Assembly (NCBI GenBank): GCA_021793575.1
Contig: JAJYSM010000009.1
Coordinates: 1 to 64,000 of the forward strand
Direction of reading: 5' to 3'
Source: Pseudomonadota bacterium
GTDB taxonomy: Bacteria; Pseudomonadota; Gammaproteobacteria; Xanthomonadales; Rhodanobacteraceae
DNA: 64,000 nucleotides
Shown: piece by piece, positions 9,130 through 13,241 of the stretch
Layout: each line of letters starts with the position of its first letter
How positions within the stretch are numbered: position 1 is the first letter of the stretch
Position numbers and translations under genes: made by a program
The notes under the pieces: generated by a model
What the model was told of the DNA's origin: nothing
The model's input: the letters and a program-made list of their open reading frames with translations, nothing else
Databases searched by the model: none

Positions 9130-10542
9130 TCAGGCGTCGGCAAACGGAAACGCCAGCACGTCGGCGATCGCGTCGGTATCGGCCAGGCACATCAGCAGGC
9201 GTTCCACGCCGAGCGCCACGCCGGCGCAGTCGGGCATCGCGTCGAGCACTGCCAGCAGGCGCGCGTCGATCGGCATCGGCGGCAGGCCGCGCGCGCGGCG
9301 CACCGCGCTGTCGCGCTCGAAGCGCGCGCGCTGCTCGGCGGCGTCGTTCAACTCGTGGTAGCCGTTGGCCAGCTCGTGCGCGCCAAGGTACAGCTCGAAG
9401 CGCTCGGCCAGCGGCGGCTCGCCGGGACGAATCCTGGCCAGCGCGCACTGCGTGGCCGGGTAATCGTGGATCACCGTGATGCGGTCGCGCGGAAACGCCG
9501 GCTGCAGGCGATGGGTGATCAGCAGGTCCAGCCAGTCGTCGCGCGTGAGTCCGTCCGCGTCGATGTGCTGCTCGGTCAGCGGCGCACGCAGGGCGTCGAG
9601 TGTGGCGTGCAACGGATCCAGCCCCAACTCATCCAGAAACAGCTGGCGATAGCTCTCGATCACCACTTCGGCGCGGCGTCCCCGCAGCGCCAGCGCGGCC
9701 TCGACCAGCGCGATGGTCTCCGCCATCAGGCGGCGGTGATCCCAGCCGACGCGGTACCACTCCAGCATGCTGAATTCGGGATTGTGCCGCGCCCCCGCCT
9801 CGCCGTTGCGAAACACCCGCCCCAGCTCGTAGCAGTCGCCCACGCCGGCGGCCAGCAGGCGCTTCAGCGGAAACTCCGGCGAGGTGCGCAGCCAGCGCTC
9901 GCTTGCCCCGGCATCGACGTGACCGCTGAAGCGCGTACTGAAACTCGCGATGTTCGGTTCGGTATTGCCCGCCGCCGACAGGATCGGCGTCTCCACCTCC
10001 AGCACGCGGCGCTCGGCGAAGAAGCCGCGGATGAGCGCGTAGAGCTGCGCTCGCAGCTGCAGCGATTGCGGCAGCGACCAGGGCTGCTGAATGGCGAGGG
10101 GCGCCCCCTCACCCCAGCCCTCTCCCCCGGCGCCGCCGGGGGAGAGGGGGCCAGAAGCCGGAATGGCGTTTCCCCCTCTCCCCCGGCGGCGCCGGGGGAG
10201 AGGGCTGGGGTGAGGGGGACGCTCTTCGCCCAAGGCCTGCATGATCGCCTCAAGCACAGCTTCGATACGCAACAGCGCGTCATCGTTCCAGAATCTCACG
10301 ACGCGAAAGCCGGCGGCGCGCAGATCCCGCGTGCGCTGTTCGTCGTAAGCGTGTTGATCAGCGTGATGACCGCCATCCAGCTCGATGATCAGCGCATGCT
10401 CCACACAGCAAAAATCCGCGTAATAACCCGCCACAGGATGCTGCCGGCGGAACTTCACGCCCAGTTGGGCGGCACGCAGGCGCGACCACAGCCGGAGTTC
10501 CGCATCGGTCGAAGTCTTGCGCAGTGACTTGGCGCGTTCCAT
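9130..10542 (-). CDS. epmA: DUF559 nuclease-like domain fused to EF-P lysine lysyltransferase EpmA
   Basis: One uninterrupted 470-codon frame. Residues 1-105 are a DUF559/very-short-patch-repair-like domain (FRRQHPVAGYYADFCC, IIELDGGHH, FRVVRFWNDD). Residues 106-150 are a low-complexity linker encoded by a perfect inverted repeat. Residues 151-470 are a complete EpmA (GenX/PoxA), a LysRS-like enzyme that adds beta-lysine to elongation factor P; TSPEFPLKRLL, RHNPEFSMLEWY and GVALGVERLLM are present. No ATG, GTG or TTG occurs in frame between the linker and EpmA residue ~180, so EpmA either is made as a fusion or starts at a rare ATT (10,092). The frame also continues upstream to an ATG at 10,635 that overlaps the ligA stop. 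DUF559-type genes are normally separate. EpmA call is secure; the fused protein is inferred from the frame. Confidence 0.85.
   Translation of the reverse strand: MERAKSLRKTSTDAELRLWSRLRAAQLGVKFRRQHPVAGYYADFCCVEHALIIELDGGHHADQHAYDEQRTRDLRAAGFRVVRFWNDDALLRIEAVLEAIMQALGEERPPHPSPLPRRRRGRGGNAIPASGPLSPGGAGGEGWGEGAPLAIQQPWSLPQSLQLRAQLYALIRGFFAERRVLEVETPILSAAGNTEPNIASFSTRFSGHVDAGASERWLRTSPEFPLKRLLAAGVGDCYELGRVFRNGEAGARHNPEFSMLEWYRVGWDHRRLMAETIALVEAALALRGRRAEVVIESYRQLFLDELGLDPLHATLDALRAPLTEQHIDADGLTRDDWLDLLITHRLQPAFPRDRITVIHDYPATQCALARIRPGEPPLAERFELYLGAHELANGYHELNDAAEQRARFERDSAVRRARGLPPMPIDARLLAVLDAMPDCAGVALGVERLLMCLADTDAIADVLAFPFADA
10104..10218. repeat. perfect 47-bp inverted repeat (REP/BIME-like) inside the DUF559-EpmA linker
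   Basis: The left arm 10,104-10,150 and right arm 10,172-10,218 are exact reverse complements, separated by 21 bp. Each arm starts CCCCCTCACCCCAGCC (or its complement) and contains a second palindrome around CTCCCCCGGCG/CGCCGGGGGAG. The pair resembles a bacterial interspersed mosaic element but lies inside a coding frame, encoding Pro/Gly/Arg-rich linker. Confidence 0.95.
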
Positions 10543-10583: not shown

Positions 10584-10610
10584 CCCCCTCACCCCAGCTC
10601 TCCCCCGGCG
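10584..10610. repeat. partial third copy of the same repeat at the ligA end of the DUF559 segment
   Basis: CCCCCTCACCCCAGC-TCTCCCCCGGCG repeats the first half of the arm at 10,104, in the same orientation, with one triplet shortened. Together with 10,104-10,218 it brackets the DUF559-coding segment (about 10,220-10,580). Confidence 0.85.
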
Positions 10611-10631
10611 TTGCCAAGGGTGCCGGAATCA

Positions 10632-13241
<2,610 letters not shown>

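Follow-up and report, generated by a model that had tools for sequence, protein, structure and literature searches.

The DNA that we analyzed (hereafter the window) is a stretch of 64,000 nucleotides from a genome of the family Rhodanobacteraceae. On its minus strand, a reading frame stays open from an ATG at 10635 to a stop codon at 9130-9132 and encodes 501 amino acids, joining a DUF559 domain, a linker, and an EpmA domain (Table 1). EpmA, also called GenX, PoxA, or YjeA, is the beta-lysine ligase of elongation factor P (EF-P) and is represented by the profile TIGR00462 and the structures PDB 3a5y and 3a5z. An alignment of the starts of eight fused proteins indicates that the ATG at 10542 (MERAK...) is the one conserved among relatives, and we number residues of the predicted protein from it unless the 501-residue frame is named. 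The upstream neighbor is presumably ligA, a name we assign from its sequence; ligA also lies to the left of epmA in most of the relatives examined. Because many relatives with a plain, unfused epmA begin this gene at the ligA stop, the ATGATG overlapping that stop in the window is likely the ancestral epmA start context.

Table 1. Features of the ligA-epmA region of the window, in the order in which they are read on the minus strand
Feature	Position	Strand	Basis and remarks
ligA (presumed; NAD-dependent DNA ligase), upstream neighbor	10632..13157	-	ORF; served as anchor
ATGATG overlapping ligA stop	10630..10635	-	Likely ancestral epmA start context (inferred)
Degenerate repeat copy upstream of DUF559	10584..10616	+	Match 10587-10606, 2 mismatches
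Predicted DUF559-EpmA fusion gene with repeat-coded linker	9130..10542	-	470 aa; ORF, translation
DUF559 (Vsr-like PD-(D/E)XK) domain	10231..10539	-	Pfam PF04480, whole-genome match, alignment
Linker, 56 residues, without canonical start codon	10063..10230	-	Two palindromic repeat copies plus old EpmA N-terminus
Repeat copy directly after DUF559	10172..10218	-	Inverted versus EpmA-side copy; exact match 10196-10215
Repeat copy adjoining EpmA	10104..10150	+	CCCCTCACCCC tail plus CCCTCTCCCCC hairpin; exact match 10107-10126
ATT (Ile) codon at expected EpmA start	10090..10092	-	Alignment, sequence
Complete EpmA (GenX) catalytic domain	9148..10062	-	TIGR00462; alignment to E. coli GenX

Both domains are matched in full. 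Pfam places DUF559 at residues 33-135 of the 501-residue frame (E 7.3e-35), and at 119.6 bits the PF04480 match exceeds the gathering score and covers profile positions 5-108 of 109. TIGR00462 matches residues 192-496 of the same frame with 361.1 bits, against an equivalog cut-off of 286.9, and in a profile search of the genome the fused EpmA was the sole match over that cut-off. E. coli GenX (PDB 3a5y) aligns over residues 152-466 of the 470-residue protein. The stretches FRN.E.G..HNPEF.MLEWYR and GVALGV.RL, which we take to contain the class II synthetase catalytic motif residues, are retained in this alignment. Further Pfam matches in 9130-10542 were to tRNA-synt_2 and, below its cut-off, to REase_MTES_1575. 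The best 50 matches listed by a PDB fold search were GenX and LysRS, the one PHROGs match fell within the EpmA part, and the PADLOC models returned no family for the fusion protein at E 0.01. The ORF, Pfam, and TIGR00462 results bear out an earlier reading made from the sequence only, which described an unbroken frame from DUF559 through a linker into EpmA; its figure of 45 residues for the linker is corrected to 56, the number of residues between the DUF559 and EpmA matches. Judged from its sequence, 9130-10542 is most likely a genuine in-frame fusion gene, and one protein probably carries both DUF559 and EpmA.

The linker is mostly encoded by two opposed copies of a palindromic genomic repeat (CCCCTCACCCCAGCCCTCTCCCCC plus a hairpin), and the degenerate third copy upstream of DUF559 runs opposite to the copy that directly follows the domain. 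At up to 2 mismatches, the 20-base core of the repeat occurs at 24 sites in the genome, three of them at the fusion locus; the reversed control occurs at none.

We examined where translation of EpmA could begin. In-frame canonical start codons are found at 10635 (ATG), 10632 (ATG), 10617 (TTG), and 10542 (ATG), as well as at several positions within DUF559. The last one in DUF559 is a TTG at 10233 and the next is a GTG at 10005, already within the EpmA core, so the earlier statement that no in-frame ATG, GTG, or TTG stands from the linker until far into EpmA is correct. The E. coli GenX alignment begins at the residue following the ATT at 10092, which identifies this codon as the place of EpmA's own start. 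The codon at the same place is ATG in genome G046 and ATC in G012, G023, and G180. We surveyed 114 distinct plain loci, taken from the family and from elsewhere in the order. No more than 20 codons separate a canonical start from the EpmA core in 111 of them, the exceptions being G012, G023, and G127; the same holds for all 83 further plain family loci, a set that partly repeats organisms or records of the 114. Only three of the 16 fused loci described below have such a start (ATG in G046 and G239, TTG in G258), 2-9 codons before the core. This difference confirms the suspicion, first raised for the window, that EpmA's own canonical start is gone. Canonical starts are entirely absent from half of the fused linkers (8 of 16), of which three (L059, L061, and L137) also lack ATT, ATC, ATA, and CTG.

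The sequence-only reading had proposed ATT 10092 as a possible EpmA start. The codon and its position stand, but ATT is absent from that place in all 15 other fused loci, and initiation at ATT is thus not a general answer. By the same reading, a fusion would be contradicted if some relative had an in-frame canonical start immediately ahead of the core. Such starts are present in the three fused loci named above, where the joining frame is nevertheless kept; judging from the codons present, a separate EpmA could be made from them in addition.

DUF559 precedes epmA in 17 of the 162 family genomes (out of 233) in which we examined the region upstream of epmA, 3 of the 162 (G036, G245, and G267) having less than 400 bp of upstream DNA. 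The 17 are G000 (the window genome), G008, G046, G130, G161, G162, G189, G190, G191, G192, G236, G239, G249, G258, G266, G268, and G269. Sixteen of them, under eight genus labels, carry in-frame, stop-free fusions; the exception is G192. Fused isolates include Rhodanobacter fulvus Jip2 (G008), which has the same genus label as the window genome, Dyella tabacisoli L4-6 (G046), and Dyella ginsengisoli LA-4 (G161). The fusion is also found in Rhodanobacter sp. C06 (G239), a Frateuria metagenome-assembled genome (MAG) (G191), a Proteobacteria MAG (G258), and Tahibacter aquaticus (G266). We therefore rejected a recent, strain-specific insertion, as the sequence-only reading had envisaged, given an arrangement common to 16 genomes whose linked DUF559 domains form one clade under purifying selection. 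Outside the family, no DUF559-EpmA fusion appeared among the matches listed in an order-wide (398 genomes) and a class-wide (369 genomes) search, a ranking that also passed over five family loci with DUF559 (G008, G191, G192, G266, and G268), which were found only through the position of DUF559 or the upstream DNA. DUF559 was likewise upstream of epmA in none of 18 non-family genomes chosen for an EpmA match that starts suspiciously early, and we found no paper on this architecture among open-licence PMC papers.

The frame that joins the two domains is conserved. The 16 fused linkers measure 114-318 nt, in 15 distinct lengths, and in every one the end of DUF559 and the EpmA core share one frame; the remaining two frames of the same linkers are interrupted by stops in 8 and 12 cases. 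For comparison, we sampled 41 other DUF559 domains from the family: in 40, a stop follows no more than 34 codons after the domain, and the remaining one (L082) is a fusion of its own, to a GDSL lipase. In G192 (L308), DUF559 and its repeats lie between ligA and epmA, separated from EpmA by a gap whose length is not divisible by three. Stops close both reading frames there, and EpmA retains an ATG 13 codons before its core. G192 likely represents the pre-fusion state, and this exception is consistent with the fusion reading because the EpmA that is not joined keeps its own start.

We then considered whether the two parts are likely to be functional. The reported pairs, which are limited to those with a DUF559 pS below 0.62 and include many dS values near or above 1, gave dN/dS of 0.10-0.37 in DUF559 and 0.08-0.32 in EpmA. 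We rejected a decaying DUF559 on this basis, as the values correspond to purifying selection. Residues E15, D43, E54, D56, and H60 are invariant in eight fused proteins. A mapping by eye tentatively pairs this set with E73, D102, D115, and H119 of VsrA (PMC12907096), whereas no invariant counterpart of D124 was found. VsrA is a DUF559 protein of Caulobacter that is reported to be responsible for an SOS response when a methyltransferase is missing, and its nicking of DNA in mismatch repair is put forward as a hypothesis by its authors (PMC12907096). On the EpmA side, we tested 15 fused genomes (all but G266), and in each the fused copy is the single EpmA over the cut-off, which rejects a second EpmA that would free the fused one. 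The same 15 genomes all contain EpmB and an EF-P with the sequence PGKGQA, which places a Lys at the loop tip. From these features, the EpmA part should still beta-lysylate EF-P, and the DUF559 part should remain a folded, Vsr-like nuclease, tethered to EpmA and probably active. An AlphaFold2 model (8 sequences) had a mean pLDDT of 60.7, with residues 181-257 of the EpmA part below 50, and was too weak for domain contacts; in this model, linker residues 110-157 look disordered.

To reconstruct the history of the arrangement, we compared trees of the two domains. In a tree of distinct DUF559 domains of at least 90 residues from the fetched loci, mostly best-scoring matches, the EpmA-linked domains form one clade (18 of 59 rows, support 99/96) that roughly follows genera. 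When G192 was added, it was placed near the base of the clade, and the linked domains still fell on one side of a branch, with support 69/83. DUF559 and EpmA distances correlate across 16 loci (Mantel r 0.68, p 0.0004). The EpmA tree came from a quick search that omitted G192 and counted G162 twice, so that the 16 fused loci appear as 17 rows; on it, the fused state requires 12 changes, of which no fewer than 7 are forced. Fused and plain loci are sisters at its tips (G000/G016, G046/G180, and G008/G001), and the plain sisters mostly have a tight ligA-epmA junction with no scar.

Other plain loci do appear to bear a scar. G012 (L033) and G023 (L052) have no DUF559 before EpmA and retain a repeat-like in-frame segment, with an Ile (ATC) at the old start in a context, AI(Q/R)(Q/P)P, like that of the window; their nearest canonical starts lie 30 and 38 codons from the core. 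In this L033/L052 set, the in-frame ATG 38 codons upstream falls inside the end of ligA. In G180, the sister of the fused G046, the junction is long and an Ile occupies the old-start position. We read the repeat-like segment with Ile in G012 and G023, and the long junction with Ile in G180, as traces of DUF559 loss. The fusion is most likely fairly old and patchily distributed; the other scatter may reflect further losses, plain alleles that took the place of fused ones, or more than one gain.

Based on these observations, we think it likely that the fusion gene arose from an ancestral placement of DUF559 before epmA, yields one chain of about 470 amino acids from the DUF559 ATG, and reached its present distribution by largely vertical descent with many losses. 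In an ancestor within the Rhodanobacteraceae, a repeat-flanked DUF559 gene would have been placed between ligA and epmA, the two remaining separate genes as in G192. In the lineage that was to carry the fusion, the repeat downstream of DUF559 would have become open in the joining frame and turned into a probably disordered linker, after which EpmA's own start codon would have decayed. EpmA would since have been made as the C-terminal part of the chain begun at 10542, an arrangement inherited largely vertically and then lost in many lineages. We infer the order of events, the single chain, the activity of both domains, and a tether that amounts to no more than co-production. What this history explains poorly is the scarless, tight junction of most plain sisters, since it calls for many independent losses there. 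Their state, the 12 changes on the EpmA tree, and the fused-plain sister pairs at its tips would fit a site-preferring, homing-like DUF559 element that, possibly using the repeats, had entered the ligA-epmA junction several times, which would yield the same protein product. DUF559 genes are indeed often framed by inverted repeats, and Vsr-like (EDxHD) homing endonucleases exist as a named family that is tied to Vsr. However, repeated entry sits badly with linked DUF559 domains that form one clade and whose distances track those of EpmA, with linkers that are strongly diverged, and with scar-like segments that suggest loss in at least G012 and G023. Seen as a homing endonuclease, the element shows patchy presence at one site, yet also this distance tracking and these scar-like segments, and we accord recurrent insertion a real but minor chance.

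The alternatives to a single product concern translation and the assembly itself. EpmA might be translated separately from a noncanonical start (ATT 10092 here and other codons elsewhere), with DUF559 merely sharing its frame. The ATT lies exactly at the EpmA N-terminus with a G-rich stretch upstream, the corresponding codon is ATC in G012, G023, and G180, and canonical starts lie near the core in three fused loci. GTG codons in the linkers of G269 and G130, like the ATT of the window, mean that EpmA alone could start there, which counts against the fusion being the only product. Separate translation would nevertheless have to operate in the eight linkers without a canonical start, including the three that lack the four near-cognate codons as well. 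It also leaves unexplained why 16 of 17 loci are in frame and stop-free while the out-of-frame G192 kept its ATG, a pattern that selection for a joint product predicts. We regard it as quite improbable. An assembly or frameshift artefact might be suspected from the palindromic repeats at the junction and from the fragmentation of the assembly into 123 contigs. The same arrangement recurs in 15 other genomes, among them named isolates and the single-contig G190, and we rejected an assembly error, the likelihood of which is negligible.

The repeats are associated with DUF559 well beyond epmA. The repeat pattern (up to 3 mismatches) is present on both sides of DUF559 in 28 of 59 rows, compared with 4 of 4,000 control placements drawn from 134 other loci. 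With the same tolerance, the upstream copy is recognized in 11 of the 18 rows with a linked DUF559 and in 18 of the 41 others, and 13 of these 41 match the pattern on neither side. We also aligned locally the two 250-base flanks of each gene, using shifted placements within the same loci as controls. Among linked loci, the alignment exceeded the 95% control level at 11 of 17; the figures were 28 of 39 for other loci of the family and 19 of 23 for class-wide ones, the last being a set of 30 best-scoring matches, not a random draw, from which 7 were omitted for short flanks. DUF559 genes sampled across the Gammaproteobacteria thus tend to sit between inverted repeats, and the class-wide result indicates a broader tie between the two. 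We found no paper tying DUF559 genes to inverted repeats among open-licence papers. The flanking inverted repeats differ in sequence between lineages (class-wide, L276-L305; family, L081-L108 and L213-L238). The window genome has a second DUF559 gene (L001, G000:C69:5434-5745) that is 49% identical to the fused one and has no match to the repeat pattern at up to 3 mismatches.

Several known systems resemble the fusion in part. It shares with EpmA the complete catalytic domain, in a genome that also has EpmB and the lysine-bearing EF-P, but differs in about 150 extra N-terminal residues (DUF559 plus linker) and in the lost canonical start. Compared with DUF559/Vsr-like PD-(D/E)XK nucleases (PF04480; PDB 3hrl by sequence; VsrA, PMC12907096), the domain is full and its acidic and His residues are conserved. 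The repeat context is common to many other DUF559 members, whereas those sampled end soon after the domain and the window frame continues into EpmA. RAYT transposases are associated with REP elements. Here, too, a small nuclease gene is framed by inverted short palindromes that are also dispersed in the genome, but DUF559 is not a RAYT protein, Pfam found no RAYT transposase domain in the repeat-framed gene, and mobility of the fusion locus would be putative. The closest parallel in construction is L082 (817-1827, minus strand, genome G236), in which DUF559 is joined to a GDSL lipase-like domain, likewise through a repeat-like coded linker; the partner enzyme differs, and its DUF559 belongs to another branch of the DUF559 tree than the EpmA-linked domains.

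The predicted product would be a chimeric protein with a genomic repeat as its linker, and the stages of its history are apparently preserved, from plain epmA through separate DUF559 (G192) and fusions to nuclease-less loci with a translated repeat-like segment and a dead start (G012 and G023). Because a Vsr-like nuclease is joined to the EF-P modification pathway, it becomes testable whether DUF559 is a passenger or has relevance to EpmA. We also considered a general partnership of repeat and nuclease, in which DUF559 acts on the palindromes that frame it across the Gammaproteobacteria, in the manner of RAYTs on REPs, an in-frame repeat permits fusion to neighboring genes, of which EpmA would be the best-preserved case, and the nuclease is kept in a fixed ratio with EpmA and possibly guided by it. 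This proposal is speculative, and we consider it unlikely as a whole.

Two further arrangements were seen between ligA and epmA. G162 (L058, C3:275814-277118) has three tandem DUF559 copies upstream of epmA, exactly 501 bp apart, and the last alone is fused. About 409-412 bp separate the ligA stop and the EpmA core in L049, L020, and L240-L242 (G049, G043, G187, G188, and G163); the gap in L049 contains a YycE-like/glyoxalase gene, and L020 appears similar.
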